Shown: positions 2,378 through 38,174 of the stretch, one piece after another
How the letters are laid out: each line of letters begins with the position of its first letter
Position numbering within the stretch: position 1 is the stretch's first letter
Notes under the pieces: model-generated
Database searches by the model: none
What the model saw: the letters and a program-made list of their open reading frames with translations, nothing else
Told to the model about the DNA's origin: nothing
From: Cladopsammia gracilis
Taxonomy: Eukaryota > Cnidaria > Anthozoa > Scleractinia > Dendrophylliidae
Length of the DNA: 64,000 nt
Assembly (NCBI GenBank): GCA_022457155.1
Contig: JAJGOT010000089.1
Location: 1,478,001-1,542,000, forward strand
Direction of reading: 5' to 3'
Program-made: the position numbers and the translations under genes

Positions 2378-3189
2378 TTAAAACAATAGCTGTTTTCGCA
2401 GGGTGTGTTTAACTTCAGGCATTTGTTTAAAGATTTTAATGTCACTCTTCCTTCCCGGTGCTGGCATTTTCATTACCATTTCGCTGACTTTTCGGTTGAC
2501 AGTAGTTAAAATACCAAGAAGGTCGTCACGATTAACACGTTCACGGAAAACGTCCACAAGAGCGCTAACATAGCGGCTTCCCAGGTCCGAACGCCTGTAC
2601 GACACATATCCGTCGACTGTAGCATAGGAATACAGGAAATCTGCATGTGTAGGACTGATTCTAGAAGCAGAAGGTTTGTCTACGTCACTTGGCGGGTCAA
2701 CATGGCCACGGGAATCCTCTAATGGAGAGGGTCTATCGGTCATAATGGCAAACCCCTCATCTTCCTCATCCCCTCTGCACGCTTGAATGAAAAAGAGCTT
2801 TGGTTTGCCTCTTAGTGTTTTACATTTGCTGAGCATGTCCTGGGCTGATTGGATAAGTAGCGTCTCCCCGTCAGAGCAAAACACCACGCCACTCTTTCCA
2901 TGACTCATGAGCCACAACACAAAACAATCATAGCCACTGTGATCTTGGCAGGCGACAGAATCCAGTTCGTTCAAGAGCTGTAGTCTTGTAAGATTCTCTT
3001 TTGTGTGTACGTCAAAACCGAGGGCATCAAACAACGCTGCAACTTCACGAACGTCTTCTTCCGACCCGTCGCGAGTTGACTGTTTTCCGTGTTCAAACAG
3101 TTTGTTATTAATGATCAGTGTTATTCCTCTTGGTCGGGCTGTCATGTTGTAGACTTCGTCTGTGCCAGGGTGATGACCTGGGCGGACAA
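2378..3189 (-). CDS. Caspase domain, last exon of the TPR-Roc-COR-caspase gene
   Basis: This exon encodes about 270 residues, a full caspase p20-p10 unit. Visible motifs are a RPRG start to the first strand, the catalytic histidine in LMSHGKSG, the catalytic cysteine in QACRG, an acidic linker containing DVDK that could be a maturation site, and a p10 segment with SYATVDGYVSYRR supplying the usual substrate-pocket arginine. No CARD or death-effector prodomain is present. The exon begins after a TTTATGCAG acceptor (ending at 3190) in phase 1, so it is not a first exon and something upstream must be spliced to it. The nearest upstream coding sequence on this strand is the COR exon. Known caspases cleave after aspartate in death and inflammatory signalling. 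The caspase assignment is firm; linkage to COR is inferred. Confidence 0.93.
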
Positions 3190-4281
3190 CTGCATAAACA
3201 AAGGTGTACATAAGTAACTGACAAATGAACAAGTTACTGTAGATGTTCGATAATGCAGACAAAGTTATAAATCTGATCTCTCAACCCTAGTCAGCCTGGA
3301 CTTTTTTTGAGTTCCTGAGCCTGGGGGGTGGGGGGCCCTGGTAACTTCGAGAGCATTAAAGATATGACAATACAACCTAGAGGGTTTATGGTACGTCCAA
3401 ATCTGTTTTCACTGTGGTCCTCAAAATGGAACGATGACGTCATATGACGTGGGAAATACGTAAGTAGTCCTGCACAGCCGCCATTTTGGTTTCACCATTT
3501 TGGATTTGTGAACTTCTCCAAAACCTCTGACAAACCGTCCAAATTGGCCCAAAAAATAATCAAAACCAATAAAGAAATGCTAACAGGGCAGCTATGAAGA
3601 AAAACTTACGTTTTCTCATTGAAAGGTAAAACAATGCAAGTCACGTCAATTTTTTGGAATGTTAATTTTCGCGACATTAATTATGTGGAGCATTAATTTT
3701 CGTAACCTTAATGTCCATTGTTATAACCCAAAATCCTGGATCCTTTCCAGCCATATTTGACACTTAGGAAACAGTAGTTTTCTTTTTTCTGCAAGCTGTA
3801 TTTCAATCGTTTACAATGTGAAAGCCTAAAGGTACAACGTTTAAAAATATTTCCAGTTCTGGTAATTGCTTTAATTGTCTTCACTTTGCAATTTCACCTC
3901 ATCTTCCGCGTCAATTTACTTTATCTGCTTTATTCGAAAGTAATATTCCCTCCAATCCCATTAATTATAGTCGCATTAATTTCAAATGCCTAACTTAAAA
4001 CAAGCGTTCCATGTAGTTTGCTATAATATGGTAACTTAAGGAGGATGGACTCTCACACTATTATCGTCATTTCATACGGCAACTTACTTATTTGTTTCTT
4101 CAGAAGATTCCATTTTAACGCTCGAGGAAACTTAATGCTCAGATGTATCAATCATTTGGCACTAGGAGTGGACTACTTATTAAGAGACCCAGTGGAAATA
4201 TTGCAACTGTTTTAAAGAAAAAAAAGCCGATTTTGTGATTTTTGTCTTATGCAGGATTAAAATTTTCATCAATCTTGATAC
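3190..4281 (-). other. Predicted intron between COR and caspase exons
   Basis: The interval ends on the minus strand with a pyrimidine-rich CTTTGTTTATGCAG acceptor. No coding frame of note, transposon ends or structured RNA were recognised. A second open stretch belongs to the COR exon if that exon is not spliced at 4282: it would then run to a stop at 4247. Confidence 0.5.
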
Positions 4282-5122
4282 TGAAAGGCTGACACAAAAT
4301 TGATTCCAAGGCTGTCACTAGAAACGTATCTCTTACATAGAATATGTCGTCACCTTTGGTTGGGAACCATTTCTCCAGTCCGTGGAGTGTCGGTGGTTCA
4401 TCGCAGAAGCTGTTTGGGCAGTGGCTCAGTTGTCCGTCCTCCAGAATTTCAAGAAGACACATACAGTCCTCTTGCGTACAGGAGACCTGGCTGTGGTTAG
4501 AACACTTATCTTCCTTTCTCGGACAATCAGGACATGCGACACGCAAGTCATACCTCAAGTTACTCAACCAGGGCAGCTCGCGTGCTAGGTTTTTCATTGT
4601 TTCTTTCAGAAACGTTCGCACAAGACTTGCCACTTCTTTTATTTCAGCAAATGACGCTCCATGGCTTGATTGTATTTGCTTCAAGACGACTTTGATGAAT
4701 CTTTTCTTGCAGACAAGGATCAACTTCTTCTCAATGAAAAACCGAGCTGCCCCATCAAACAAGTTAGGCGGCCGCTTGAATCCTCTCATAGAGCACCATC
4801 GTGTACATCGTGACACGAGCTGTGGGTACAGACCATGAGGTACAAAACCCGCCAGAAAGTGGAGATACAATGGGCATGGATCTGAAGGCGATGGCTCCAT
4901 TTCACAAAGGGGTTCAGGCGGTGTCTTCAGTTGACAGGGAACAAAATACACTGTTGGCGAGGTGGCAAACTTGACGATCAATCCGAACTGCTCCATCATG
5001 TCCAGGATGTCTTCCTTGATTAAGCCGTGCTGGCAAAACTTGGAAAAGACGTAGTCAACAAGTTCCATGTTCAGGACACCTGTTGTCTCCATTTCCTTCC
5101 ACAACTTAGAATGTCTTGGTTC
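4282..5122 (-). CDS. COR domain, C-terminal exon
   Basis: This exon encodes about 280 residues of the C-terminal COR region (C-terminal of Roc), the dimerisation module of ROCO proteins. It starts after a TTGCTCTTTTTCAG acceptor in phase 0 and joins in frame to the preceding exon, which ends SFSDM. Family-typical stretches include a winged-helix-like segment (LIKEDILDMMEQFGLIVKF) and FVPHGLYPQLVSRC. A cysteine-rich patch (CPDCPRKEDKC and following) lies in the C-terminal third. The 3' limit is uncertain: the frame stays open to a stop at 4247, but phase-1 donors exist at 4281 (A/GTATCA) and 4353 (AAAG/GTGACG), and either would fit the caspase exon. The first 20 bases of the exon are partly duplicated just upstream (about 5180-5205). 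The domain call is strong and the exact end is not. Confidence 0.85.
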
Positions 5123-5369
5123 CTGAAAAAGAGCAAAATGGAACAAATAAAGAAAACGCCTCTACATTTGTTTTCAAAACTTGGCATGTCTTGGTTCCTA
5201 ACAAATAACCGAAACAGAACAAAATAAAGAAAAAAACATTCATTCATATTGCTTTTTGTGATCATAGCAGTGATGTTATACCGATTCAAGCTGGCTTGAT
5301 GGCTCACTGATTATGTTATGTTATGTTATGTTATGTTTAAAGTAATGTTTAGTAACTAATAAAGAGCTT

Positions 5370-6090: not shown

Positions 6091-6320
6091 GCTGTACCCC
6101 GCCTGTACCCTTTCTGTACCCCTCCTGTACCCTTCCTGTACTCCGCCTGTACCCCTCCTGTACCCTTTCTGTGCCCTTTCTGTACCCTTCCTGTACCCTT
6201 CCTGTACCCTTCCTGTACTCCGCCTGTACCCTTCCTGTACCCTTTCTGTACCCCTCCTGTACCCTTCCTGTACCCTTTCTGTACCCCTCCTGTACCCTTC
6301 CTGTACCCCGCCTGTACCCA
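6088..6320. repeat. 11-bp minisatellite (CTGTACCCTTC type)
   Basis: About 21 tandem copies of an 11-bp unit of consensus CTGTACCCTTC, with variants in the last four bases. The strand asymmetry leaves long open frames in both directions that give repetitive peptides; these are artefacts. The array begins exactly where the Penelope-like RT frame breaks off. Confidence 0.9.
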
Positions 6321-7095: not shown

Positions 7096-7345
7096 CATGT
7101 CACTGAAGGAACGAATGGTTATTAACTGCTTGAAGACCTCAATAAGCCATTGCGCCTGCAAGACTACAGTGGTGCGGTGTTTAACAATTATGCCAAGGTC
7201 ATGATAAAAATTCAGCATAGTGGCAGCCTCATCTTCGCTTTCAATAAAGCACACTTTCTTAATTATTGCTTGAAGTTGTTCGAGGTCCAAATAGTACGTT
7301 TTCTTGGCAACCAAAGCGCGAACAACCTTCTCAAAGTTAAACCAC
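7096..7345 (-). CDS. COR domain, N-terminal exon
   Basis: An 83-residue exon bounded by a TACTTTTTCAG acceptor and an ATG/GTAAGG donor. It carries the start of the COR domain: WFNFEK, then FYHDLGIIVKH, then a VVLQAQWLIEVFKQLI segment close to the family pattern of DLG...V.H followed by V.L..QWL...F...I. The upstream Roc exon ends in VPLR with codon phase 2, and the joined codon restores VPLRWFNFEK, which is how Roc and COR abut in this family. The downstream junction is phase 0 to phase 0 with the exon at 5122. No stop or frameshift interrupts it. Confidence 0.9.
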
Positions 7346-8120: not shown

Positions 8121-10117
8121 TGTATCACCCATAAATGTAATAACAACCATAAATGTAATACTCACCATAAATGTAATAAAAATCAACCATAAATGTAATA
8201 CCAACCATAAATGTAATAAGAATCAACCATAAATGTAATAAATGACTAACCATAAATGTAATATATTTTTGACCATAAATGTAATAATCTGACTCACCAT
8301 AAATGTAATACGTTTCAACCATAAATGTAATAAACTGACTATCAAGAAAATAGTCTGAAAAATAGAGTCTGAAGCTATTTTAAGTGGTTACTTAATGTCT
8401 TGAGAAGTCAACCGCATTTGAATCATTATGGAGCGAGCTTCTAACTGCCTATACCAACTGCAGTCAATTATGAAAATCCGCTTAACAACTTCATGGTCAC
8501 TTAACATATTTTGGTATTGTATGGTACGTCTGTCACTTCTGGAAAGCCTCAGATAAACGTAGATGAGAATGCTTTTTGTACAATTTTCAACAATAGCACA
8601 AATGCCGCTTTAGGAGTTTCTCCTCAGCAAGCAAAGCGTCCCACTCTCAACAGCCTAGAAGGTTTAAACTGATGTTACTATTCTTATATGTACATAGCAA
8701 CGAACCGTTTACAAAAGGTGCAATTTACGAAATTTCGATTTTTGTTGAACTCGTTTAAGCACTTTGAAATGGAACATTCCGCGTCATGATGCTTACTCAC
8801 AACTTCAGTGCTTTAAACTCAATTATAAGGGAGCGACCTTGAAGTATTGACATTTGTCCAAAATCATACCCCTCAATACCTTAGGAATATCAGGTGATCT
8901 GATATCCCTTGTTAAAAAAAGTATGTACCCGAGTTCTTGGGTTTTTTTTAATTTCTTTTCTGTTTCTCCTAAAGTTACAAAATTTGTAGTCTAAAAAATC
9001 CGACAATTTATATTTTGAACAGTTTAATGGAAAACTGATTAACAAACTTTAATAATGATCGACTCAACTATGTCTGTCTCTTTTTAAAAGCGGACAACAC
9101 AACGACAACGTAGTTTCCTAGGCCTGGAAATTTATGAAACGATAAAACGTTCGTAACCAACAACATTATTGCACCCAACCTCAACGAGACTTGATGACGT
9201 CGTATACAGCTTAGACCTAAGTGAACTGAAATGAAATGACAAGAGGCTAGGATAAATAATTGCTTACGTTCGTTCAGGTTGTGAAATGTGAATAAACGTT
9301 TCTTTTAACTTGACAGCTATTCACTCCGAACATTACTTCGTTTACATTTTATAACTGGGCCTTGGTTCCGTACTAGAAAAAGTTTATTTGAGATAATAGC
9401 AACTTTAGGTTTGGTCACGTGAATGACAGATGACGTCCAACACACCACGTTAGACAACTTCAGTTTGTCCAAGTTTGGTTGTTCGAGAAAGATATGCATG
9501 ACTGGCGAAATCCTGGTCCTCATAACTTAAGGCTGGTAACCTTTTTGTGCAAACTGAAGAACGCAGGGTAAAATCCATTATTACATTTGTGGTCAATTCG
9601 TATTACATTTGAGGGCTTTATTACATTTGTGGTCAATCCTTATTACATTTGAGGGCTTTATTACATTTGTGGTCAATTATTACATTTGTGGCTTCAACAG
9701 GGAGACTTATTGGAGAGGGGTGGTTCATAGAGAGGGGGGCTAATTAGAACGTTTATGGTAATGTATCTTCCAGTAGAGTCAGTTAATGCCATGGCAACCT
9801 ATTTCTGCCGCATACCAACGAACAGATATCGCCGATCTGTTTCATTACATTGAGTTTAAATTTGCGTGTAAACCAACCATAAAAAAGGTCGTTAAAATTC
9901 GTAATTTTTATTGGTATCCAGTTTATTACATTTGTGGTTAACACGTATTACATTTATGGTGAGTCAGATTATTACATTTATGGTTAAAAATGTATTACAT
10001 TTATGGTTAGTCATTTATTACATTTATGGTTGATTCTTATTACATTTATGGTTGGTATTACATTTATGGTTGATTTTTATTACATTTATGGTGAGTATTA
10101 CATTTATGGGTGATACA
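8121..10117. mobile_element. 2.0-kb DNA transposon with termini made of a reiterated 14-bp motif
   Basis: The element begins TGTATCACCC and ends GGGTGATACA, and is flanked on both sides by GTCACT (8115-8120 and 10118-10123), a 6-bp target duplication. Its long inverted termini are built of spaced copies of CCATAAATGTAATA: ten on the left (8128-8335) and nine in reverse complement on the right (9920-10108). Spacers between copies match between the ends, so the arms are true inverted repeats, differing by one unit. Six related copies of the form TTACATTTGTGG or TTACATTTGAGG lie internally at about 9580-9695. No transposase is encoded. The element is non-autonomous and sits in the intron between the Roc and COR exons. 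The 6-bp duplication does not by itself identify a superfamily. Confidence 0.85.
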
Positions 10118-10284: not shown

Positions 10285-11009
10285 CGAAGTGGTACCTCCT
10301 CCCCCATGTATGGCTCTTGCTTCAACACTTCAATCATTTGCTTCTGAAGTGCAGCAACCCCATCACCAGATGATCCTTGCGTGTTGTCAACTGAGAAGAA
10401 AGGACGGATTACGTGACCGTCGTAGTCCTTTCCAGAAATCTCTCTCTGAATCTGCAACTCCATCTCCTTGACTTCTTGATGTGGTTTATCCGCGTGTGTT
10501 CCTACGATGAATATTGGAGGACGAAGATAAGGCGGAACTTTCCTTGTCACTTTGCTTTCGTCCATTTCTTGTTTTGATGAGCACATGGTACTAACTGAAA
10601 CCAGCCACGATAACAAATTTTGCAAATTCGTTTCGTGGTTTGGGTTATTGAGATTAGTATCATGAATTCCTTGTCTGACACAAGGCTGTGCAGTGCTCCT
10701 TAAGTCTTTGGAGAGATTGTACACCAACACATAAAGTGCTCGCGAAGTTAAGAACACTGAGTGTGATGCGTAATAAAGATGCTGTCCGGCAAAGTCCCAT
10801 AAATCTAAAGTCATGTGATGCTCAACTGCTGCGGCTTCAGTTTGCAATTTTACACCTTTCAAATACTGCACAAAAAGATCTGTGAATTCTTCTGGAGGTA
10901 AAGCAGCATCAATATTCAATTCAGGAATGACGGGTTGACTTGTTGCACTTTCTTCAATATGGTGACCAACTGGACCTTCTTCTGTTTTCTCGTTTTTTTC
11001 TTCCCCAAT
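10285..11009 (-). CDS. Roc GTPase, C-terminal exon (G3-G5 motifs)
   Basis: This exon supplies about 242 residues. It holds the G3 motif of ROCO GTPases (DLWDFAGQ followed by HLYY), a hydrophobic strand ALYVLVYNLS, the G4 region IFIVGTHADKP, where THAD replaces the NKxD of Ras proteins as in other ROCO GTPases, and a G5-like FFSVDNTQG. A charged linker of about 60 residues precedes G3. The acceptor is TTTTTGATTCAG (phase 0) and the donor is CTTCG/GTGAGT. The P-loop and switch I are in the previous exon 9 kb away. The Roc domain binds GTP and acts as a switch; nucleotide-binding motifs look intact. Confidence 0.92.
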
Positions 11010-12805: not shown

Positions 12806-13030
12806 TAATAATATGTACATTCTCTCAAAAATTACTGTCACTGTTTTCCAATGATACCTGCTTTGATACCTGCTTTGAATTCTGCTATAATAATTGAAAT
12901 TGACATAATTGGTGGTCAGCGGTTTTTTATTCGATAATTTTGGTCAGCGGTCTTTTTCATCATTTTAGCGATCCGCCATTTTGAATTGCCAGTCAGTGTA
13001 GTGAAGCTACTCACACTGTCATGATCTTTT

Positions 13031-16000
13031 ATGGCGAATTTATATGTTTCTGCTTCTCTAGACCCCAAAAAGACAAATCTAGAATTTGATTTGTGCATTA
13101 TTTGCCAGAAAGGAGAGAAGGAAAGTCTTGTTTGCAAACCTTCAATCGATTCCTACGGAAAAGATTTTGTCAAAGAATGGGCTAGTTATGGCAATAAACA
13201 GTACTCGGAGGCTTGGGTTAAGCTGCAGGATATTTCAGTGAAAGATCTTGAGGAAAAAGGTTCTTCATGGCATCGATCCTGCTACAAGGGTGTTGCCCAC
13301 ACAGTAATGATCAAGAGAGTGAAGGAGAGGTATGAAAGAGAGTTATCTGGCCCAAACGAATCCAGGCGTAAGTCTCGATCAGGAGCTGATAATATTACTC
13401 CAGAGCGTTCTGAGCTGACTCGGTCGCAAACTTCACCTTTAAACAAAACTAATTGCTTTTTTTGTGATGGTCAAGCAGGTTATAGGGAGATGCTATTTAA
13501 TGTTAGGACACTATCTGGCGGAGAATCACTGCGTAAAGCCATCACTTTGTCAGGTAACGAGAAGCTCGCCGTTAAGTTAAATACCGCCATTGCCTCCAAT
13601 GATGCGCATTCAATCGACATCAAGTACCACAAAAACTGTTGGTTGAACAGCGTGACCAATATTTTGCGTAAGCCAGCTTCCGCTTCTGGGGTCCCTGTTA
13701 GAATGGCCAGTGATGATAGCAGCCAAGATAGAATTCTTAACTTTAACTGATATTACTTTAAGTGATGGGAAGATTGTCCCGATTTCTCAGTTACAAGCTG
13801 CATACAAAGAAATTCTTAACGCAAACAACGTCGCCAATGAAACCATGAATCGTAAGGCATTGAAGCAACTACTCCAAAATGAAATTGACGACATCGAGTT
13901 TCACAGGCCGAAGCGAGTTAACGAATCGGAAAGGGTAAGCGCGAAGAAAGGAAGAGATAGAGCGATCCAAAAAACTGAAGATCAGGATGATATGAAAGAT
14001 GATGAGATGAAGACGTTATTTGATGCCGCTGCACTGATTAGAAAGTCTATCCTAAAGTGTAAGAAGTGGGTATTTACCGGCTCCCTTGATAACATCACTG
14101 ACGAAAATATACCCATGGAACTCTTCAGCTTTTTCAGGTGGGTAATACAGCGCCCATTTGACTTGCTTGCATAAGAGAAAAAGTCCAGTGAGGTACACAA
14201 GCGTGCAATGAGCCTTACTCAAAATAACGTGGCCATGTGTCTATCAGATCGCCAGGTGAAGCACAAGAAGTCAGAAACTACTAGGATGACAGCTGAGATG
14301 CCTCAACAACTGGCGATAGGACTTGCTGTCCATCAAGCTGTGCACAGCAAAGAGTTAATCAGCTTACTCCACGGGTTTGGGATGTCAGTAGATTACAACC
14401 GAGTGCTAAGAGTAGAATCCCAGATCGAATCAAATGTCCTTACACGAATGGAGCAGAATGATAGTGTCTATCTCCCTCCAGACATCGTAAAGGGACGGCA
14501 TGTGTTCTTTGCGATTGATAACGTCGACTTCGCCGAAGATACTCCCGATGGCAAGCGTACGTTCCATGGCACTGCAATGGCGATTTACCAACGCGCCGAT
14601 CCCCAAGACCAGGTGGTTCATGTTAATGTAGACCCAATTCTGCAAGGCCGTTCAATAAAAGATCTGCCAGATTCCATTACCAGCCTCGTGGAATGCCCTG
14701 CCCCGCCAATGAAGCCCAAAGGTCCTGTTAATGCCAAGTTCAGTCTTTCCGTGAAAGAACTTCCAATCCAGATAAGGATGCAAGATGCTGCGTGGCTTCT
14801 CGGGAGAAATGTGACAAGAATCCAAGCAGACAACTCCCAAGCTATCGAGACAACTGAGCAGCTAGATACTCAACCGAAGAAGATCACCAGCATCCCAGTC
14901 TGGTCTGCCTATAATTCGCTGGTCACTGACCCGATCCCCTCACCCGAGTAGGAACACCTCCTTTAGTTGCTGCGCCAGCCCATGAGTGGTCCACACTTTT
15001 GACTGTGCTCATGCAAGCACAAGATATTAATGTGAAAGTGGTCGGCCCAACAAGGAAGACAGTGATCTCGCTGGATTTAGGGCTATACCAGCCTGCAAAG
15101 AAACTCCAAATGGCACGTCGTGATCTGAAGCACCTCATTCTTCGACCTGGAGAGCTCCACATTGTGATGGCTGAACTACGTGCAATAGGCGCCTACATCG
15201 ACAACAGCGGAATCGATACATGCTGGATCGAGTCAGAGCTGTATGGCCCTTCGACTGTCAAACAGATCCTCGGCGTCAATCATGTGAAGAGAGCGCAGAC
15301 AGCTCACATGATCACTCTACAAGCGCTGTTCCTGATGTACCATGAGGCCGTTATGGAAGAAGACCCAAATTCGCACCGAAGCCTCGAAGAGTCCGTTACA
15401 CAGTTGAGCGATGCCTGTGCTAGTGGCGCCAAGGAGACAGTGAAAGAGGCGCATAACAGGCTGGTTTCTACCATAGAGTCACAGAAGATTATAGAGAAGA
15501 TGGATGTGTTTGATAAAGAAAAGGAGAAGAGTCCGTTGTTTAAAGTCGTTAGACAGTACATGAGAATGGTAATGGAAATGATGACATTCATTCGAGCCGT
15601 TCGAACTGGCGACTGGGCACTTCACCTAGAAGCTCTTGATGTATTTACCAAGTACTTCTTCGCACATGACATACTGAACTGTGCTCGGATGATTCCTGTC
15701 TATTTGGCTGAGATGCATATGCTGGAAGAGTCCGATCCAGAGATCTATGAGGAATTTCAGCGAGGAAACTGGGTTGTTAATAAAAACCCATGTGTATCAT
15801 TCTGTTCACTCGGCGCAGATAATGCACTTGAGCATGTAAATCGCTCGATGAAGGTCTCAGGAGGGCTGATCGGCATTACGCTAAACCCAAACGCTCGCTC
15901 GAAGTACTTCCTGATCGCACCAGAGCTGGCACGACTGGCAGAGAAGACAAAAGAGATGTCTGGTATGTCAGCTTGTAAGACGGAGAAGCACCATCATAGC

Positions 16001-18191
16001 CTAAGCACTGCTGTACGGGAGCGTCAAGAGAAGAACATCGAGCAGCTGGCTACAAGCTTCAGGAACTTCACAAATCCTTTCCTTGATGAGAGCAGTGACC
16101 TCTTTAACATCGCGACAAAGGTTGTAATGCCCGACAAGGTGAAAGAAGACCTCTGTCAACAAAGCGCTGTAGGGACCCAGCTGCTGAGCCGCTTCGTAGA
16201 AGAAAGGGTTACGACAGGCACATATAGCATCTGGTATCCTATGAAGAAGCGAAAGCTTAACACGTGGAAGAGTGCTACGAAGGTAATCAGAGTGAAAGCC
16301 AACGATAAAATCATTGAGCTAAAGGAAGATCGCTCCTTGTTCGCGCGCATGTCCTTGGTGGCAAAATCTCGCCCGGAGATCGACATCAAAGAAGCTGTTG
16401 GTGAATTCGAGTTTAACGTGGTACCAAAGTCGATGTTTGCTCCAGATGGCTCTATGCTTCACTGTTCCTGCAAGAGCGACTTAATGGCTATTCTAGAGAG
16501 GTTAGGTGGCACACGTACGGGTTCTAACACGGAAGAGCATGAGATCCCTCCAGAAAGAACGGCTACTCGGATGAAAGTATCTATTGTCGACGGAATGGCA
16601 GAGGTGCAAGCGCTAGACAAACTGTCTTGGGTCAAGAATTGTTTGCAACTTTCGGAACACTTCTCAACACGCATCTTTGCTAAGTACGATGACAGTGACG
16701 AAGTGCGACTAATATTTGACAGGTAAGTTTTATCATCATTCATTATCTATCACTCTACTGGCGACGGTACATTAGAAAGAAATGCGTTAGTAAATGAGGA
16801 GAGATAACGATATGAATTGTAAATTTTAGATACGATGTGCCACTATGGACAAGAGCGTCAAGACAGGGCAAACAAGCGCCAATCTACTACAAGATCACTG
16901 ATGCAACCCTCATCGCGAAAACTCCCATGAAGAGACTTATATCCCATGTAAAGACAAAGTCGGAACTGACTCAGTATCTAGCCAGGAAGGTCTTAGAGAA
17001 GGGACAGGAGAGCGGAAACAATGTGGTAGTGGCATGGGGCACTCGCTGTCACTCACAGAGATATGGCCACTCACAGAGATATGGCCCATCTCGAGAGCAG
17101 TCACGAAGAGGCAGACACCAAGCTGTTGTTGCACACTGTCGACGCGACTTCCTCCGGAGCCACCTGTATCGAGATGGTCTCACCCGACACTGACGTCTTT
17201 GTGTTGTCCCTTCGACGATACTCGCAGCTATGTGAGGACACATCATTTGTCACCGGCAAAGGAGAGCGTTATCGAAAGATCAAGCTTGGCCCAATCGTGC
17301 GTGCTCTTGGGCCTGCTAAAACTGCAGCACTTCCTGGATTCCATGCATGGAGTGGAGCAGATATCACCGGGAGCTTTGCAGGTAAACGAATGATTTCGGT
17401 TATCTGGATAAGTAGAATCTTTAGAAAGGCAAGGTAACGTTCTCATTGTTATGATGTTTCGGGTAAAGCAAAGATGTTATGCTGGAAAGCTTTCATTAAC
17501 TCTGATCAAGACAGCATCACTGCACTCGCAGACCTGGAAACCACTGTTCAGCCGAATGGAAGTACCTGTGATGGGATCGAAAAGCTAGTTTGCAAGCTGT
17601 ACCAGCCAAATACACACATCACCAAGGTAAAGGAACTGAGATGGCTCCTGTTTCGCAAGAAGCAAGCTGAATCGGAGAGACTGCCGCCCACCCTAGCCGC
17701 ACTGAAGGAAGCTATCAAGAGAGCACATCACCAGTGTATGGTATGGAACAACGACATCGTGCCAAATCCAGAACTGCCATCGCCATCGAATTACGGATGG
17801 AAATTGGAAAAAGCAACATATCAATGTAATACATGTTTATCTGAAATTATCCACCCCCATGGCCAAGAATAATTCGCAAAAACTTAATGTATACGGCATG
17901 TATCTGCTTTCATTCACAGATGAATGGTTTCCAATAATGACACCATTACAGCCAGCGCCAGATGCCGTGCTCCATCTAGTCAAGTGTGGTTGTTCAAAGG
18001 AGAGCTGCTCAACGAACCGATGCCAATGTCGCAAGGCCGGACTCCCATGCACTGATCTCTGCAGTTGTATGGACATTGAAGAAGACGAGTCCTGCAATAA
18101 TGCCATTGAGGAGGAAGAGGAGATGGGCAGCGAGTCCAGTGACAACGAGGAGGAAGTGGATGTTGATGATGACGATGAAGATGACTCGTAA
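13031..18191 (+). pseudogene. Broken Academ-like transposase gene (zinc fingers, XPG/PIN-like nuclease, CXC)
   Basis: Coding sequence runs over most of this interval in several frames. The N-terminal part has two cysteine clusters: CIICQKGEKESLVC followed by SWHRSCYKG, and CFFCDG followed by YHKNCW. The centre (14999-16722) is an intact 575-codon stretch ending at a good AG/GTAAGT donor, whose partner acceptor at 16829 restores FDRYDVP. Next comes the nuclease signature HEEADTKLLLH with SPDTDVFVL, then ALPGFHAWSGADITGSF. The C-terminus has a CXC region (CGCSKESCSTNRCQCRKAG) and an acidic tail. Damage includes a frameshift near 13710, an in-frame TAA at 14172, a frameshift near 14946 and a 17-bp tandem duplication at 17055-17088 that shifts frame inside the nuclease region. 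The gene is therefore a non-functional copy. Confidence 0.8.
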
Positions 18192-18936
18192 AAATCAAAG
18201 CTTCGGTCATCTTTTTATACCGTTTAAGTTAAAAAGGACAAATATAGAAATTTCTGAAATGAGTATTTGCAGAAAGCCTTAGGTATTTATTTAACAGCTT
18301 TGTTTCCATGCCATAAATGATGATATAAATGGCCATGTCAACATTCAAAGCAGGTGCCGTTGGGGAACAAGTGATAGCAATGTTTGAAAGAATGTACATA
18401 TTATGCCGGATATAAACATTTTTCTGTTCGAGCCTCGCTTCCATGTCAAAAAGGTCACGTGACGATATTCATTACTTTAATGTTTATTAACATGTCAGAT
18501 ACCATCTCATAACTAATCTGAGCAAGTGTGGTGACAATTGGTTCAAATAAGCGATAATTATAGCCCATCTAATGTTAGAGCCTCGCTTCCCTGTCAACAT
18601 GGTCACGTGACCTTGTTAACTATCATTATGAGTATTGTCATGTTAGATATCATCCCATAATAAATCTGAGCAATTTTGGTGACATTTGGTTGCAATTATC
18701 GATAGTTATGAGCAATTTAAGTTTCAGCCTCGTTTCCATGCTGAGCCGTACGGGGCCTATTTTAAAACCACCGTAGCAGCTGCCGGTGCAAGTCGCAAAA
18801 TTGCCGACAACATTTTCTGTGTTCCTAAGGGTCCCCTTGACACGTCTAGATAGGTGGCTTGTTATCTTCAAGAAAATCCCATGGGACTTTAAATCGCGAC
18901 TTATGCTCCCTGACTATTGCTTTGTTTTTGCATTGC

Positions 18937-20125: not shown

Positions 20126-20514
20126 CTGACTTTTCTTAGAACGTATCTCCTTTGATTTATTTTGAAGTTTTGAATCCATATGTGTTTCTTTTATTTCTTG
20201 AAGTTCTCCAGCCACCATCCTTGCAAGGTCGTTCACAAAGTAGGATACATCTAACTGTTCATCAGCGCGTTGCCAATTGTTGACCTGATCAACGTCAACG
20301 TCAAATTTTGATGGGTCAACTTCAATTCCGTCAGTGCTCTGCTCTTTAGGGTCAAATGGCAGACCTATCAAAGACTTCTTCAAACTTGTCTTGCCCGCTC
20401 GATCTTGACCTATTAGCATGATTCGAGCACGGTACACCTTCACTTTTCCAGTCTTCAAAGCATTCTCATAGGCAAGCTTTGCTCTTGGTCCTCGTGCTTC
20501 AATCTCACTTGGAA
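20126..20514 (-). CDS. Roc GTPase, N-terminal exon (P-loop and switch I)
   Basis: A 130-residue exon. It contains a lead-in helix ARGPRAKLAYENAL, the strand VYRARIMLIG, the P-loop GQDRAGKTSL (GxxxxGKT) and a switch I region with the invariant threonine in STDGIEVDPSKF. Acceptor TTTTCACTAG ends at 20515 in phase 1, and the donor is AGTCAG/GTTGGT in phase 0. Joining to 11009 places G1 and G2 ahead of G3 in the correct order. The 9.1-kb intron that splits the GTPase fold carries the Academ-like transposon. Nothing in the exon looks damaged. Confidence 0.92.
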
Positions 20515-24904: not shown

Positions 24905-27040
24905 TTAATACAGATAAAAATATACAGTCTTTGCATGGCATAATACCACAGTGTATAACATTAAAATAACGTGACGCTTTATCAAAGGAAAATTGCATAA
25001 GCGGGTGAGCGTTAGGAACAGTGTTGGTGAAAATGTACTTTGAGAAGCACCCTTAATAAGGCCAAATAATACCGTGAGTAACAATCGGTTGGCGGCAGTC
25101 GCAATGTCGGGAGGGGGAAAGAATTTCCCAAACGTTTGGTACCATGGGTGAGAAAACAAACGTATGTGTGAACCAAAATTACCAATATTGGAAACGGCAT
25201 GCGGAACTGATAAGTAGAGCGTGTCCGAACTTTTTCTAGTCGTTGAGTATCCGGATGTAATAGATTTGTAGTATGTTGGTAAGTGACTATGGTTTGTGTG
25301 CGGAGATTCGTGAACTGCAATTTTTCTGTGGTATTTCTGTGTACTATTTATAACGTTTTCCACTGGAAATTGGTCACGAGTACGATTTGCATGGATTGGA
25401 AATTTCTGAAATGTATCCGGTTCACTTAGAACTCGTTGGAACATAAACTTTAAAATAAAAATTGCTTTTAGATGGTTTATCGCACTAAACTCATTATCGA
25501 AAGGCAAAAGAACTAAATGAAGGCAATAAAATGATAACAGTATAAGCTCAAGAAATGTGTAGATTTTGGTGTTGGTACAAAACACTTGTGTGTCACTTGC
25601 GTTGCAATTTAATTGAAAGCAACGTTGGCGGCGTCGCGGTTTTAATTGGTCGAGCGAGCGGCTGGTAAAATCTTGTTTTTGCGTAGCAGAAGATTGGTAA
25701 GGGTCACTTAAAACTAGCATAATAGTCTGTGAATAGACGGGCTCTAATGTAATATTCCTGACATTTACAATTGGTTCATCAAAAATGGTTGGAGTTTCGT
25801 CAAAATTGTCATCTTCAATGCTATTAATAGTAGTAAATATTGCAGGTGCAATTTGCACAATTTCAGAACAATAAATGGCATGTGTATTGACCGAGTTAGT
25901 CACCGGCAAATAACGATGTTTGGGAAAAGACATGAATTGACCGCTCTCAATGTGGTAAAGAAGTGTATGGCTCTTCAAATATTCATCTAATGTTGGTAAT
26001 AGCATTGCCTCGTCGTATGTTGGTAAAGGAGAGTTAAATAGGTTTCGTTTATCATTGGTTGCATATGATACAAGTGTATCTTCAATGTTCTTGTCGCGGA
26101 TTGGTTCATTAGAAAAGTTTGATGGCGCGCTTTCATTCGGAGGATTGAAACTACTTGCGAAAATTTCATTTAATGTATTCGTGTCATTACTTAGTCCACT
26201 TATAAAATCTATATTTGATTCTTGTATTCTATGTTTATTCTGAATTTGATTGTCCGCTTGAAAAACGGCCGTATTCTCTTCAATGGTTATGAACTGCGAA
26301 TTTAAAGAGTTTGGTATGTCTCTTGTATCCTCGAAATCTTTATAACTTTTAATATTTGTATCGTTTCTATAATCCTCTGCGATTTCGATTTCCTCATAAT
26401 AATTCTCGGTAATTTCATTAGTATTTGTCGCAGCAAGTTCATTTCGCAAGCCATTGTTTTGGTTCTCAATTTCATTATTCATAACTTCATTTTCATTTTC
26501 GATAAAATTGTTGCGCAATTGGACATCCTCTGTAGCGTAAATATTTTCATTACTGCGCTCTGTATCTTCGCATGTAGCTTCAATTTGGGTACTGTTCTCT
26601 GTATCATATTCAGTTTGAACTTCTTTAATGTGTTCATTGTAATTTGTGCTCAAGTGGATATTTTCAATATTTTCAATGAAAACGTCATTAGTTTCGTCTT
26701 CAATACCTTCTATAATAACATCATCTTCATTTTCAGCCGCGGAATCTCGAGGTAAAGGTAAATTGGCCAATGTGTTACCCATAGGAAAATATGTGCGAGT
26801 TAAATTTGGAGCCGTGCTGGGATCAGGCCGACTACAACTTAGTGGACTAGCAGTTCCCCGGTTAACTACTTCATCCGAAATAGACAGTTGTGAACCAGTG
26901 GCTCCGCAATAAGAGTTATTGGTTAAATTACTAAAATTCGAAATAGTTACATCAGCATTATATGTACAAATGGGGCGTGATCTATGATTGGCTCTTGCAC
27001 GGGGGGTAGGGCTTCCGGCAAGAGCCCTTATTCGTTTAAA
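24905..27040 (-). CDS. Second frame of the LTR element, probably made as a -1 Gag fusion
   Basis: The frame is open from the TTTAAAC heptamer at 27040 to a stop at 24905, about 711 codons. The first ATG comes only after 86 codons (26782), which fits expression by frameshifting from gag. The N-terminal half is rich in Asn, Glu and Ile and has a late-domain-like LPTYDEA. The C-terminal half has several hydrophobic runs, for example LELILLSFYCLHLVLLPF and LLLTVLFGLIKGA, and could be membrane-associated. No aspartic protease, RT, RNase H or integrase motif is visible. Possible origins are a leftover 3' reading frame after loss of pol, or an env-like or accessory protein. The function is unknown. 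Confidence 0.6.
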   Translation of the reverse strand, partial: FKRIRALAGSPTPRARANHRSRPICTYNADVTISNFSNLTNNSYCGATGSQLSISDEVVNRGTASPLSCSRPDPSTAPNLTRTYFPMGNTLANLPLPRDSAAENEDDVIIEGIEDETNDVFIENIENIHLSTNYNEHIKEVQTEYDTENSTQIEATCEDTERSNENIYATEDVQLRNNFIENENEVMNNEIENQNNGLRNELAATNTNEITENYYEEIEIAEDYRNDTNIKSYKDFEDTRDIPNSLNSQFITIEENTAVFQADNQIQNKHRIQESNIDFISGLSNDTNTLNEIFASSFNPPNESAPSNFSNEPIRDKNIEDTLVSYATNDKRNLFNSPLPTYDEAMLLPTLDEYLKSHTLLYHIESGQFMSFPKHRYLPVTNSVNTHAIYCSEIVQIAPAIFTTINSIEDDNFDETPTIFDEPIVNVRNITLEPVYSQTIMLVLSDPYQSSATQKQDFTSRSLDQLKPRRRQRCFQLNCNASDTQVFCTNTKIYTFLELILLSFYCLHLVLLPFDNEFSAINHLKAIFILKFMFQRVLSEPDTFQKFPIHANRTRDQFPVENVINSTQKYHRKIAVHESPHTNHSHLPTYYKSITSGYSTTRKSSDTLYLSVPHAVSNIGNFGSHIRLFSHPWYQTFGKFFPPPDIATAANRLLLTVLFGLIKGASQSTFSPTLFLTLTRLCNFPLIKRHVILMLYTVVLCHAKTVYFYLY
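26990..27040 (-). promoter_or_regulatory. -1 programmed ribosomal frameshift signal at the gag end
   Basis: On the minus strand the gag codons CAT TTA AAC contain the canonical slippery heptamer T TTA AAC (27040-27034), two codons before the gag TAA (27030-27028). After a 7-nt spacer comes a perfect 9-bp stem, GGCTCTTGC (27026-27018) pairing with GCAAGAGCC (26998-26990), with a 19-nt loop. A -1 slip enters the long downstream frame exactly. Heptamer, spacing and stem all match classical retroelement and viral frameshift sites. Confidence 0.88.
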
Positions 27041-28215
27041 TGTGAGTTAGGCTGCCTAAGGTTAGATTGCCCTGAAAACTGTGGCCTATTAGGAACACTA
27101 ACTTGTAGTCGCGAATCCTTTCTGCGCTGGTGACATGTACGCCATATGTGCCCTACGCGTTGGCAAAAAGAGCAAATGGGATCTCCTTCTACCGTACGAA
27201 AATTGCGTCCGTAAGAATGAAAATCAGGGCGACGTGGATTTTGATAGCGCCGTAATTCGTTTTCTAGGCGAGTTACCTGCCTCTGTAACTGGTCAATTTG
27301 ACGATTTGGTGATCCCTGCCAATTGCGCGCTTGAGAAAAATGCAATGGAACACTTTGAGACTGGTCGTAAGCAGCTACGCCTGCGGCAGAAACTGTATGC
27401 TGTTGAGTTTGTTCGTGCAGTTGTTTAATCTGCCTAGATAGTTCATCAAAACGCCTGTCCAATTGTGATGGGACAGACTCTGCGGAAACGGCAGCAATAG
27501 TTTGTGAATGTCCTGACACTGGCTGTGTCATTAATTTCTTAAACATTGTCTCCATTTGCGTTAGTACTGTCTGAGTCTCTGACACGCTTTGATTACTGTC
27601 TACTAATTCCTTCATGCGAGCTGAAGATTCCGCTTCTTGAAAACTTTTAGGTCGGGTTAAGATGACATAGCTTTGTATATTAGGCTGGAGGCCTTGAATA
27701 AAATAGCGCGTCGAATCTGCGTCTGACAACTTTAGGCGCTTGCATAGGCGTATAATATCTGTTATGTAATCATCAAGGCGTTCACCTTTCGCCTGCTTAC
27801 GAGTGCTTAATTGTTGGCTAAGAATCCAATCTTGTGGTCCCGAAGCAAAACGCTTTTGAAATGCGGCCTAAAGCTGACCTAAATCTGACTTCATCTCTTC
27901 AGATAAAGAAAGGAACCATGCATGAGCCACGCCTGATAGATACAGCGGTAAAGCATTGAGTTGATTTTCAACTGACCAGTTATTGATGTTAGCGATTCGT
28001 AAAAAGGAATCGAGCCAAGTTAAGGCGTCTACGGTAGGATTGCCGTCAAACGCATCTGGTTGTAATCCGATGGAACTTGATTTTTTATCAAGGCGAGTCT
28101 GAATTAACTCTAATTGCGTTCTCTGTGTGTGTGACTCCTTGGCGAGATCTTGTCTTAGAGATGAACACAAATCGTGGAACATTTTCTCAATTTCTTTCTT
28201 TTGTTCTTCGTTCAT
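27028..28215 (-). pseudogene. gag of the LTR element, one in-frame stop
   Basis: The frame begins at an ATG at 28215 and runs to 27028, about 395 codons. It contains a retrotransposon Gag capsid-like region (DAFDGNPTVDALTWLDSFLR, then YLSGVAHAWF), a continuing segment with LDDYITDIIRLCKRL, a Gln-rich coiled stretch, and one CCHC zinc knuckle, CSFCQRVGHIWRTC. A single TAG at 27868-27870 interrupts it just before the sequence AAFQKRF, and coding resumes in the same frame. The copy is thus disabled by one nonsense change, or the stop is read through; the former is more likely. The 3' end carries the frameshift site. Confidence 0.85.
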
Positions 28216-28969
28216 GTCTGTAGTTTTGCGGTGTGCGGGGCATGTACAAATATCAGTGTGAGTCTGTGTACCTAAAGTTTGTGCTTTACGGTTTTAAGAT
28301 CGAGTGACAATTTGCCTAGAAGGAACAGGTTTATGCATGCACTGAGACAATACCTATCGCTCTTGGCTGATGCATTATTTAGGATAAGTAAAATTAAATA
28401 ATTATGAGAAATAAAATTAGTACTGATTCTAATACTCCTTAAACTGTGACAATAGCGGTCATAATGTTCGCCTCCTAATATCCGTATGCTTGTGTCTTTT
28501 TCTTGTTTGTCCTCTTGTTTGGGCTTCGTTGGTCTTCAAGTACGCGTCTGCCTCTTCTCAGTTCACTGGTCCTATTAGAATTCTTCGACGCACTATCGAC
28601 CCGTCACAGCTTCAACGCACAAGCGTTTGTTCTTCGTCCGAGGACAACGCCCCGGCAATGTTCGTTTTTATTTGCTTATTTGGTTGTTCTGTGTTTGCTT
28701 GGTTGTTAATATCGTTCCAGTGTCGGCATCTTTCTGGAGGTAGTCGTTCTTCGTAGGACTCAAACTGCATAAATTTAGCACAACAAATCGTAGGGAGGTT
28801 CCACCAACGTTTCGCTGTTGGATCGGCGAAGAGAGCTGTGGGTACCAGTCGGGTATTCTGCCACCACCCTGTAGAAGAAACTGCCACGTCCACAGCCACT
28901 AAGACCAGGCATCAATCAGTTTGGGCAGCGAGAGGAAAACCGCGGAGCGTCCCGGTTCGACCACCACTT
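28216..28969 (-). other. 5' leader of the LTR element, with possible primer-binding site
   Basis: About 750 nt separate the 5' LTR from the gag ATG. Three bases past the LTR on the minus strand is TGGTGGTCGAACCGGGACGC, which begins with the TGG expected of a primer-binding site. The TCGAACC element sits too close to the start for a standard tRNA 3' end, so primer identity is unclear. No coding frame is supported. Confidence 0.5.
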
Positions 28970-30181: not shown

Positions 30182-30184
30182 CTT

Positions 30185-35267: not shown

Positions 35268-35402
35268 CTGAACTGCTACTTGGAAGTCCTGCGTGGGCTG
35301 CATATTCCTCTTCTTTAATTTCTTTGAAATCTCCTGAACCTGACCGTTCTTCTGAACCTCTTTCTGCCAGCAGTTTTCCTCGTATGTCATCGCGAAAACG
35401 TG
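35268..35402 (-). CDS. Short linker exon between TPR array and Roc
   Basis: A 45-residue exon with a GTTACATGTAG acceptor (phase 1) and a TTCAG/GTAAAG donor (phase 1). It is charged and serine-rich (FRDDIRGKLLAERG, then EEEYAAHAGLPSSSS), likely a flexible linker. Its phases fit the TPR exon on one side (ends CCAG in phase 1) and the P-loop exon on the other. The identification rests on splice signals, phase and lack of stops, not on homology. Confidence 0.65.
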
Positions 35403-35946: not shown

Positions 35947-36042
35947 TAGCCTGTTCCAGGCTCCGAGATATCTCATTTTTTCCCCCTTTTTTTTACTTCG
36001 CGCGTTCCCCACTTTCTCGGAGCTCGAGCCTGGAACAGGCTA
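35947..36042. repeat. Small inverted repeat (TAGCCTGTTCCAGGCTC)
   Basis: A 96-bp segment starts TAGCCTGTTCCAGGCTCCGAG and ends with the near-complement CTCGAGCCTGGAACAGGCTA. Non-coding, a MITE-like hairpin. Confidence 0.8.
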
Positions 36043-36746
36043 TCACACAATAGTTTTCGTAGTAGGTCATGCTAATGATTTCGATGTTTCCCTTCAACAA
36101 AACTCATTGCGTTTGATGCCTGAATAAGACAAAACATGAAATTCATGTTAATTCGGTAAAATCTGGATATGAAGTGTACCTTTTGACGAGTCTGAATATC
36201 GACGATTTGCTGTTTTTAGCAAAGCTTGGAGACAAGCGGTAAAGAAATATTAACCAAATATTAACCAAATAAACATTATAATAATATCCCCCAAGGCATG
36301 CCCCTATAAGCTCCTATATGATTAATTATGATAATATTGTATAATGGATATCAGATTAAATAGAAAGCTAGAATGAAAAAGGCTATATTAAAAAAGAGTC
36401 TAACATACTGGCTTTATACTTAATTATGCCGGGTTTACCTTATCCACTAATTTCTAATTTTAAATCGCTGCTAAATAGTCTCTTCTCCTGAATGGCCTAA
36501 GCGATCACATGACGCAATTAATGGTGCTTGTTCGCCTGGAAACAAATCAACAAATAGTGCAACCTTGGTAATAGCGCTCGTTACCGTTACCCGTCCAATA
36601 ACAAATTTGGTACATTTCATTTTAAATCGTTACCGCTCCAAACAGTTTACCTTGTGATCTATATCGTTATGTTCAAAGAGTTTGTCAGAAGCAAAATCCA
36701 TACAATCGAAGCCCGGCTACATTTAATCCTTAAGGACGTTCGCGCA

Positions 36747-36778
<32 letters not shown>

Positions 36779-36832
36779 TCTGATCACTGATTTTCTAATG
36801 CTCTTTTTTGCAAATCTTGCTATACTCATTAC

Positions 36833-38174
36833 CTGGAATGTGATCTCCATGTAACTGATACAACTTGGTTAGAACATCGTACGCTGCTGCTTCCCTTTCC
36901 TTGTCTCCTGTTTCCTTGGCAACACTTAGTGCTTGTTTGCCTTCTTCTATGCTCTTTTTGTAGTCTCCAGCCTCGTAATACGACTTGGCTAGAACAGTGT
37001 ACGCGTCAGCTTCCCTTACCTTGTCTCCTGTTTCCTTGGCACCACTTAGCGCTTGTGTTCCTTCTTCTATGCTCTTTTTGTAGTCTCCAGCCATGTAATA
37101 CAACTTGGCTAGAACATCGTACGCTTTTGCTTCCCTTGCCTTGTCTCCTCTTTCCTTGGCAACACTTAGTGTTTGTTTTCCTTCTTCTATGCTCTTTTCG
37201 TAGTCTCCAGCCATGAAATACGACCAGGTTAGAACTTTGTACGCTTCTGCTTCCCTTTTATTGTCTCCTGTTTCCTTGGCAACACTTAGTTCTTGTTTTC
37301 CTTCTTCTATGCTCTTTTTGTAGTCTCCAGCCTTGTAATACGACCAGGCTAGAACATCGTACGCTGCTGCTTCCCATTCCTTGTCTCCTGTTTCCTTGGC
37401 AACACTTAGTTCTTGTTTTCCTTCTTCTATGCTCTTTTCGTAGTCTCCAGCCTTGTAATACGACCAGGCTAGAACATCGTACGCTGCTGCTTCCCTTTCC
37501 TTGTCTCCTGTTTCCTTGGCAACACTTAGTTCTTGTTTTCCTTCTTCTATGCTCTTTTCGTAGTCTCCAGCCTTGTAATACGACTTGGCTAGAACATTGT
37601 ACGCTGCTGCTTCCCTTTCCTTGTCTCCTGTTTCCTTGGCAACACTTAGTTCTTGTTTTCCTTCTTCTATGCTCTTTTCGTAGTCTCCAGCCATGTAATA
37701 CGACCAGGCTAGAACATCGTACGCTTCTGCTTCCTTTTTCTTGTCTCCTGTTTCCTTGGCAACACTTAGTTCTTGTTTTCCTTCTTCTATGCTCTTTTTG
37801 TAGTCTCCATCCCTGAAATACGACTTGGCTAGAACATCGTACGCTTCTGCTTCCCATTTCTTGTCTCCTATTTCCTTGACAACACTTAGTACTTGTTTTC
37901 CTTCTTCTATGCTCTTTTTGTAGTCTCCAGCCTCGTAATACGAACAGGCTAGAACACGGTACGCTGATGCTTCCCTTTCCTTGTCTCCTGTTTCCTTGGC
38001 AACACTTAGTAATTGTTTTCCTTCTTCTATGCTCTTTTTGTAGTCTCCAGCCTTGTAATACGACCAGGCTAGGGCAGTGTACGCTGCTGCTTCCCTTTTC
38101 TTGTCTCCTGTTTCCTTGGCAACACTTAGTGCTTGTTTTCCTTCTTCTATGCTCTTTTCGTAGTCTCCAGCCAT
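36833..38174 (-). CDS. TPR-array exon of the TPR-Roc-COR-caspase gene
   Basis: Eleven consecutive 40-residue units of consensus GDYxKSIEEGKQxLSVAKETG followed by DKxxEAxAYxVLAxSYYxA, a TPR/TPR-like helical hairpin of the kind found in kinesin light chain and LGN proteins. Such arrays form superhelices that bind peptides or proteins. At DNA level the 120-bp units are nearly identical, implying recent unequal exchange or gene conversion. The few differences fall at repeated positions and change amino acids. The exon ends ATTCCAG/GTAATG in phase 1, matching the linker exon. The start is uncertain: the ATG at 38174 lies inside repeat 0, and the frame reaches back to about 38257, where a 19-bp deletion relative to other units brings in a TAG. 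The true 5' exon is not identified. Confidence 0.85.

Follow-up and report, generated by a model that had tools for sequence, protein, structure and literature searches.

A multigene family of predicted single-chain Roc-COR-caspase proteins in the coral Cladopsammia gracilis

Results

The gene analyzed here is very probably a member of a multigene family encoding single-chain Roc-COR-caspase proteins, which have an N-terminal TPR array in the window and in the paralog C377 and would act by a GTPase-gated, adaptor-free death or immune mechanism. The window is the whole stretch of 64,000 nucleotides of Cladopsammia gracilis contig JAJGOT010000089.1 that was analyzed; the gene region occupies positions 2378-38174 of the minus strand. 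Exon order, conserved splice sites and intact GTPase and protease motifs are evident at the level of sequence. The prediction that Roc-COR and caspase reside on one chain is well supported because paralogs keep both the order and the splice sites.

Exon structure and domain content

A first-pass annotation had described seven minus-strand exons (TPR, linker, two Roc, two COR, caspase) with agreeing phases; order, strand and phases were reproduced by script, the junctions from TPR to caspase being 1-1, 1-1, 0-0, 2-2, 0-0 and 1-1. Phase-1 introns are located at all three domain boundaries, the frames are open and the motifs intact. The TPR exon, originally bounded at 36833-38174, is matched by the TPR-Roc-COR relatives P0003, P0005 and P0019, and is followed by a linker exon of 45 codons (35268-35402, phase 1-1). 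Roc exon 1 (20126-20514) contains the P-loop GQDRAGKT, and Roc exon 2 (10285-11009), identified by Pfam and by paralogs, contains DFAGQ and THAD; we take these three to be the G1, G3 and G4 nucleotide-binding motifs. COR exon 1 (7096-7345) holds the start of COR-A. COR exon 2 with its Cys-rich tail (4354-5122) ends at a phase-1 donor after 4354. The caspase exon (2378-3189), recognized by Pfam and by paralogs, follows a phase-1 acceptor AG at 3191-3190 and ends at a stop codon. The caspase reading frame has an in-frame Met at its 5' end.

Pfam searches were carried out with the window pieces separately and gave matches to TPR_12 (8.3e-67), to Roc as two halves (6.9e-8 and 1.9e-6), to COR-A (1.4e-6, under Pfam's own cut-off) and to Peptidase_C14 (1.2e-52). 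The COR exon 2 piece by itself had no Pfam match; relatives match it strongly, namely 98 of 248 proteins among the matches listed at E <= 1e-10. A Roc GTPase followed by COR, as is characteristic of Roco proteins, was also found in the intact paralog C377, where COR-A scored 33.4 bits against a Pfam cut-off of 35.3 bits, and a profile built from Roc-COR relatives matches 4wnr, 3dpu and LRRK2. The caspase has both the catalytic His (SHG) and the catalytic Cys (QACRG) of peptidase family C14, with caspase-8 as the nearest solved structure. Neither NACHT nor NB-ARC, the mark of NLR and STAND proteins, was matched by Pfam in the window pieces or in C377. The CARD or DED prodomain of classical initiator caspases had no match in the window pieces, in C377 or in ten frames in or beside the COR-caspase gap; for the TPR piece this check covers the best 25 of 29 families. 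The window and C377 Pfam results contain TPR instead of the LRR front end of bacterial AP-GTPase conflict proteins; the effector, a caspase after COR, is C-terminal to Roc-COR as in those proteins.

Paralogs in the genome

The gene had initially been treated as a lone case. It turned out to belong to a multigene family of related loci in the same 878-Mb genome, and precedents exist in bacteria, amphioxus and Exaiptasia. Twelve paralogous loci, selected for proximity of both exons, have the order Roc2-COR-caspase. One paralog, C377, is an intact TPR-Roc-COR-caspase gene of 1256 aa from ATG to stop with phases 1, 0, 2, 0 and 1. The full chain including TPR is supported by this one intact paralog. 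The nine contigs whose length is known carry 25 caspase exons, of which 17 were found at most 16 kb downstream of a same-strand Roc exon; under random placement on the same contigs this count averaged 1.95 and never exceeded 7 over 2000 trials, and Roc-caspase proximity therefore exceeds chance. Among all 31 near caspase exons, 17 were located in this manner, 14 lay farther than 16 kb from any Roc exon, and five had none upstream on the same contig and strand; 16 of 51 Roc2 exons were served by a near caspase exon at 20 kb. The loci are not uniform. Roc exon 1 was detected in 4 of the 12 and was not found in 5.6-7.5 kb upstream of Roc2 at C1401b, C1094a and C1094b or in 12 kb at C409a; COR exon 1 was not found at C1259a, COR exon 2 is broken at C995, and C1094 has one Roc2 followed by two caspase exons.

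Judged from these copies, purifying selection acts across the paralogs. Against older paralogs, dN/dS was about 0.2-0.4 in Roc2, COR2 and caspase and about 0.1 in COR exon 1; Roc2 gave 0.6-1.5 against the closest copies, with few changes. Catalytic SHG and QACRG are kept in 14 of 14 caspases, DFAGQ and THAD in 13 of 13 Roc2 exons, the P-loop in five of five Roc1 exons, and GTD precedes the caspase domain in all 14 copies. The caspase exon and the Roc-COR exons have conflicting histories (AU p = 0.004), which indicates that paralogs have exchanged or sorted their effectors. As an alternative to exon exchange, ancestral tandem caspase exons may have undergone differential loss, as suggested by the two caspase exons behind one Roc2 on C1094.

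COR-caspase junction and 5' end

The total length had been given as 4494 nt, with donor 4354 named as an alternative to 4282. Donor 4354 ranks at the 98.4th percentile of 3603 minus-strand GTs, scored with frequencies from general knowledge rather than from a tool; donor 4282 ranks at the 31.7th, and its surrounding sequence is not kept in older paralogs. Matches of relatives end within COR2 residues 252-256 in 75 of 98 cases (earlier in 9, later in 14), and donor 4354 falls after residue 256.33. With donor 4354 instead of 4282 the chain is therefore 4422 nt long. Beyond this donor the frame stays open to a stop ending at 4247 (4247-4353) and an AATAAA is present at 3934, as would be expected from two adjacent genes, a Roc-COR gene stopping at 4247 and a separate caspase with its first exon or promoter in 3190-4247. 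This arrangement is very improbable. The read-through frame is still open in the four closest paralogs, but the sequence is unrelated or stopped in older ones; the COR donor, in contrast, keeps its codon position and phase in all 12 paralogous loci, and the caspase acceptor is conserved in 13 of 13. The stop at 4247 was accordingly rejected as the usual end for family members; a caspase-free isoform ending there is possible in the closest copies. The longest minus-strand frame between COR and caspase in the window is 66 aa, the lack of a prodomain match in the gap frames also argues against a separate caspase, and the nearest short caspase predictions in the protein database mostly show unrelated sequence ahead of the same V-R/C-P boundary.

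At the other end, the TPR frame is open from 36795 to 38267 and includes 11.6 repeats of a 120-bp unit (36870-38260), with a likely 5' acceptor AG at 38338-38337. The start proposed at 38174 did not hold, as it is merely the first in-frame Met, inside a repeat unit. It is unlikely that the TPR exon (36.8-38.2 kb) comes from another gene and that the window protein of an otherwise real family starts elsewhere. Such an origin would agree with the 15 kb between linker and Roc exon 1, which include retroelement sequence, and with the upstream DNA retrieved separately for four paralogs, where TPR was found at C377 and not at C694, C995 and C409a; in the loci as first retrieved, little upstream DNA being covered in most and introns holding insertions, TPR was seen in none of 12. 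However, the linker exon, whose proposal is hereby supported, is homologous to the 3' end of the TPR exon of C377, where linker and TPR form a single exon, and Oculina, Stylophora and Acropora have predicted TPR-Roc-COR proteins. There is a greater, though still minor, chance that the window copy is decaying and yields a shortened protein or none, with other copies working. An ATG at about 38286 corresponds to the C377 start codon but lies in another frame, the first repeat unit is interrupted, the 5' end looks disturbed, and several mobile-element frames occupy the introns; against decay, the exons from 38174 onward are open, the splice sites good and the catalytic motifs all intact, and the start-codon reference is one copy only, C377. 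Doubtful to a similar degree is a chain whose caspase is not gated by Roc-COR, being a tethered scaffold or still dependent on an adaptor or a further caspase for its activation. Roco proteins frequently serve as scaffolds, and gating is itself something that we infer; the catalytic motifs of all 14 copies argue against an inactive scaffold, though not against activation by something else.

Relatives and known systems

Parts of Kaur et al. 2021 (PMC8195603) describe bacterial LRR-Roc-COR proteins with C-terminal caspases. These AP-GTPase (Roc)-COR conflict proteins likewise combine N-terminal repeats, a Roc-COR core and a variable C-terminal effector, including caspase, TIR and GT4, and one genome may hold several paralogs with differing effectors; in contrast to the coral family, those described there are bacterial, carry LRR rather than TPR and do not form a single exon-shuffled animal family. 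The predicted Branchiostoma belcheri proteins P0101 and P0102 share the order repeat-Roc-COR-caspase on one chain, but their sensor is LRR. The predicted Exaiptasia 'Caspase-8' P0086 (944 aa) is Roc-COR-caspase, its caspase lying a short distance past the COR W-F motif; it spans 95% of the Roc-to-caspase query with 34% caspase identity, and the predicted protein lacks TPR and the N-terminal Roc half. Its AlphaFold model, with a mean pLDDT of 66.5 and a weak caspase part, was set aside. In the best tree, the window caspase falls into a 100/99 clade with P0130-P0135 and P0137, and P0086, P0101 and P0102 lie outside. Separate caspase joinings in the window, Exaiptasia and amphioxus lineages would nevertheless be too strong a conclusion, as AU tests do not reject one clade (p 0.099 with P0086, 0.172 with P0101/P0102, 0.197 with all three).

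Coral and actiniarian proteins (P0003, P0005, P0019, P0063) have the same Roc-COR core with up to 64% match, and P0003, P0005 and P0019 have a TPR front end; after COR, such relatives carry Death, GT4, OTU or TIR and no caspase. Across relatives, the same Roc-COR block is joined to Death, GT4, TIR, kinase and OTU domains. By hand count, 47 of 120 relatives among the matches listed have a Death domain, which follows COR in P0005, P0019 and P0063. Actiniarian NG1/NG3 appear, in parts of PMC5094078, among TPR/LRR/TIR/kinase-Roc-COR-Death/GT4/OTU proteins. The caspase query against long proteins gave 10 matches, all without Roc; since it missed the known P0086, P0101 and P0102, this result does not demonstrate absence. 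In P0135, Pfam matched caspase alone, the front part giving no match. Caspase-8/10, CARD-caspases and the amphioxus TNFR-caspase and LRR-caspase hybrids share the caspase catalytic core, and the hybrids shorten the path from sensor to protease as the coral chain would; they bear DED, CARD or receptor domains, and the sections of PMC2575513 consulted do not mention Roc-COR. The TPR-Roc-COR-caspase architecture was not met in the portions consulted of the Roco, caspase, coral, cnidarian and amphioxus literature, including PMC7159879, PMC4715348 and PMC3196919.

Discussion

Animal initiator caspases are normally switched on via death-fold adaptors. The gap between COR and caspase contains no CARD or DED match and relatives carry a Death domain, so that it is natural to infer a bypass of the death-fold adaptor; the family, as predicted, suggests a death or immune receptor without need for an adaptor protein. 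In the proposed mechanism, the TPR array would bind a cue or partner and the Roc GTP cycle would alter how the COR dimer pairs. Two C-terminal caspase domains resembling caspase-8 would thereby be brought together and activated by proximity, and may cleave themselves within the Asp-rich linker between the subunits, with the conserved GTD ahead of the domain as a further possible site. Cell death or an immune response would then start without a CARD, DED or Death adaptor. Sensors and effectors could be exchanged by exon shuffling, because phase-1 introns flank the Roc-COR block on both sides.

A broader proposal, to which we give even chances, is that a family of caspase receptors, free of adaptors and gated by a GTPase, arose in corals from phase-1 exon modules as an animal equivalent of the bacterial Roc-COR conflict proteins. 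Its Roc-COR chassis would be common with Death- and GT4-bearing relatives, and its caspase module would have been exchanged between paralogs, recombining sensors and killers in one genome.

Roc-COR and caspase on one chain already have precedents, in bacteria as described in parts of PMC8195603 and in proteins predicted for amphioxus and Exaiptasia. Discordance between the Roc-COR and caspase trees provides a case of effector exchange or sorting in one genome. A GTPase switch and a caspase on one chain would permit a direct test of GTP-controlled caspase activation. Furthermore, the family could bear on a possible common design of Roc-COR defence proteins in animals and bacteria, and on the control of coral cell death in disease or bleaching.

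Exon structure and domain composition

The gene on the minus strand of the window comprises seven exons, which encode a TPR array (38174-36833), a linker (35402-35268), the two halves of the Roc GTPase (Roc1, 20514-20126; Roc2, 11009-10285), the two halves of the COR domain (COR1, 7345-7096; COR2, 5122-4354), and a caspase (3189-2378). The first-pass annotation had proposed this order with agreeing intron phases, and the exons could indeed be joined in frame throughout with a single terminal stop. With the donor at 4354, the chain is 4422 nt long instead of 4494 nt. The three domain-boundary junctions (TPR/linker, linker/Roc, COR/caspase) are in phase 1; the introns within Roc-COR are in phases 0, 2, and 0. 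Exon shuffling is classically marked by symmetric phase-1 modules.

Pfam analysis of the separate pieces corroborated the previously read domains TPR, Roc (as two halves), and Peptidase_C14; COR-A scored below threshold, and the COR2 piece by itself gave no Pfam match. A profile built from 12 Roc-COR relatives matched 4wnr, 3dpu, and LRRK2; among solved structures, caspase-8 was nearest to the caspase.

The COR donor had been placed at 4282 or 4354. Scoring of 3603 GT sites with generic consensus frequencies ranked donor 4354 at the 98.4th and donor 4282 at the 31.7th percentile. Donor 4354 falls after COR2 residue 256.33; similarity to COR2 ended within residues 252-256 in 75 of 98 relatives (earlier in 9, later in 14), and in the Oculina protein P0003 similarity to the window ended at 4355. 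The donor (A/G)AAG|GTG was found at the same codon in all 12 paralogous loci read in this genome; the acceptor of the caspase exon, (C/T)AG ahead of (C/T)TG, was retained in 13/13 paralogs, i.e. these loci and C1094c, which was matched by its caspase alone. Beyond the donor, older paralogs carry unrelated sequence or stops; hence the poorly scoring donor 4282 and the 4247 stop are not family-wide features. The read-through frame remains open in the four closest paralogs, so a caspase-free isoform is possible in these copies.

An intact paralog and the 5' end

The full chain was supported by a second locus, C377:1110718-1101490, which contains an unbroken frame of 1256 aa from ATG to stop. Its exons are ordered TPR, Roc1, Roc2, COR1, COR2, and caspase, with a linker homologue inside the TPR exon; its intron phases 1, 0, 2, 0, and 1 match those of the window gene, and Pfam identified TPR, Roc, Peptidase_C14, and, below threshold, COR-A.

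As compared to C377, the window gene has retained a likely acceptor ahead of the TPR exon (AG 38338-38337), the counterpart of the C377 start (ATG at about 38286) is in a different frame, and the first TPR unit is interrupted. The first in-frame Met, at 38174, lies inside a TPR unit. Judged against this single reference copy, the window copy may start at 38174 or may be decaying.

The paralog family

For Roc exon 2, the genome (877.8 Mb, 1469 contigs) yielded at least 150 matches (150 out of 220 candidates scored), and for the caspase exon it yielded 61 (64/64 candidates scored). Twelve loci were picked for Roc2 and caspase exons near each other on one strand; their co-occurrence there is thus by selection, and the test consisted in the intervening exons and splice sites. 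COR2 was present in 12/12 loci (broken at C995), COR1 in all except C1259a (11/12), and Roc1 in four. Roc1 was not found in 5.6-7.5 kb upstream of Roc2 at C1401b, C1094a, and C1094b; for the remaining loci without Roc1, 1.8-3 kb upstream of Roc2 were covered in the first reading. At C409a, the 12 kb upstream of Roc2 gave no match to Roc1 or TPR; a search for TPR upstream of Roc1 was likewise negative over 25 kb at C694 and 11 kb at C995.

Spacing was counted for 31/61 caspase matches (E to 1.8e-57) and 51/150 Roc2 matches (E to 2.5e-70). Of the 31 caspase exons, 17 had a same-strand Roc2 exon no more than 16 kb upstream, 21 within 40 kb, and 24 within 60 kb; five had no Roc2 match anywhere upstream on the same contig and strand. 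Conversely, 16/51 Roc2 exons were followed by a caspase no more than 20 kb away. On nine contigs of known length, 17/25 caspase exons lay within 16 kb downstream of Roc2 on the same strand, as compared to an average of 1.95 and at most 7 in 2000 random placements.

Apparently, the window gene belongs to a family encoding single-chain Roc-COR-caspase proteins, with TPR in the window and the intact paralog; we consider this very probable and hold it short of certainty because the 12 loci were preselected and TPR and Roc1 were often missed. That both were missed in considerable upstream DNA of paralogs would fit a TPR exon that belongs to another gene, the protein then starting elsewhere; this is unlikely, however, as TPR, linker homologue, Roc-COR, and caspase share one intact frame at C377.

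Conservation and exon histories

With the window counted in each case, all 14 caspases had SHG and QACRG, all 13 Roc2 exons had DFAGQ and THAD, and all five Roc1 exons had the P-loop. In comparisons with older paralogs, dN/dS was about 0.1 for COR1 and about 0.2-0.4 for Roc2, COR2, and caspase. The closest copies gave values of 0.3-0.5 for COR2, 0.4-0.6 for caspase, and, on very few changes, 0.6-1.5 for Roc2.

Trees of Roc2 and COR2 grouped the window with C694, C1051, C1259a, and C1259b (100/100). The caspase tree broke this group: the window, C1259a, and C1051 fell with C1094a, C694 and C1259b with C1401b and C1094b (support 85/90), and forcing the five-member group was rejected (AU p 0.0043). 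Judging from these trees, caspase exons would have been swapped among paralogs, or ancestral tandem caspase exons differentially lost. At C1094, one Roc2 exon (308983) is followed by two caspase exons (304804, 295025), perhaps alternative last exons.

Mobile elements and repeats

The linker-Roc1 intron contains, at 24905-28293 (minus), a Ty3-like gag (Retrotrans_gag 6.2e-5, just under the cut-off) and a 713-aa frame without Pfam match. Mobile-element-like frames, one matching DUF6589, occupy 13025-18214 on the opposite (plus) strand in the Roc1-Roc2 intron, and the Roc2-COR1 intron carries opposed CCATAAATGTAATA arrays (8124-8334, 9578-10114) that resemble a fold-back element. A 33-bp repeat block at 6092-6319 in the COR1-COR2 intron resembles one in the same intron of C694; its insertion would therefore predate the duplication, or it was copied along with it. 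Outside the gene, a DIRS-like retroelement (51197-55379, minus) has a reverse transcriptase in ORF 52000-54222 and, by eye, a tyrosine-recombinase-like end; inverted copies of one short frame (50646-50948, 50907-51182) adjoin it. Near-identical 115-aa frames lie 10.5 kb apart at 46756-47103 and 57294-57641 (plus). At C694, genes named by eye as Polinton-like lie upstream (L031-L032, C694:160001-180000), and the COR2-caspase intron (L019) holds a 1263-aa frame, LINE-like by eye.

Relatives in protein databases

A Roc-to-caspase query yielded 128 proteins, 120 of them listed, whose precomputed domains were counted by hand. Among these 120, at least three combine Roc or COR with Peptidase_C14 (P0086, Exaiptasia 'Caspase-8'; P0101 and P0102, Branchiostoma belcheri), at least seven TPR with Roc, and at least 47 carry Death; none unites TPR, Roc, and caspase. 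The nearest caspases among the best 120 of 377 were short predictions (P0130-P0133, 65%; P0134, 58%); their similarity begins at the same V-R/C-P boundary, preceded by mostly unalignable sequence. P0131 and the C377 caspase share 88% identity, so that another assembly probably contains a close relative of this copy.

The best tree placed the window caspase in a clade (100/99) with P0130-P0135 and P0137, and P0086, P0101, and P0102 outside; a constraint uniting these three with it was not rejected (AU p 0.10-0.20), hence single and repeated joining of Roc-COR and caspase are both compatible with the caspase tree. In the Roc-COR tree, the window fell into one group (SH-aLRT 98) with the TPR-bearing P0003 and P0005 and with P0017, for which TPR is not listed.

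Excerpts of earlier papers describe bacterial LRR-AP-GTPase-COR proteins with at least 24 C-terminal domains, caspase, TIR, and GT4 among them, and >500 GT4 paralogs in Acropora digitifera (PMC8195603); coral caspases combined with CARD, death-fold, a second caspase, or glycosyltransferase (PMC4715348, in which the term 'roc' is absent); amphioxus LRR-caspase and TNFR-caspase hybrids (PMC2575513); and actiniarian Roc/COR proteins bearing TIR, kinase, or Death (PMC5094078). TPR-Roc-COR-caspase is not described in these four excerpts.

Proposed mechanism

The TPR array would provide a platform for a ligand or partner and Roc-COR a switch and dimer, by which caspase domains would be drawn together. 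Caspase-8 is activated by proximity, and the same activation may follow here. Candidate cleavage sites are Asp residues of the inter-subunit linker and GTD ahead of the caspase domain; GTD is found there in 14/14 copies and aligns near caspase-8 LDKVYQM. P0005, P0019, and P0063 carry a Death domain at the position occupied by the caspase in the window protein; such proteins would recruit a caspase via an adaptor, whereas the window chain would bear the caspase itself.
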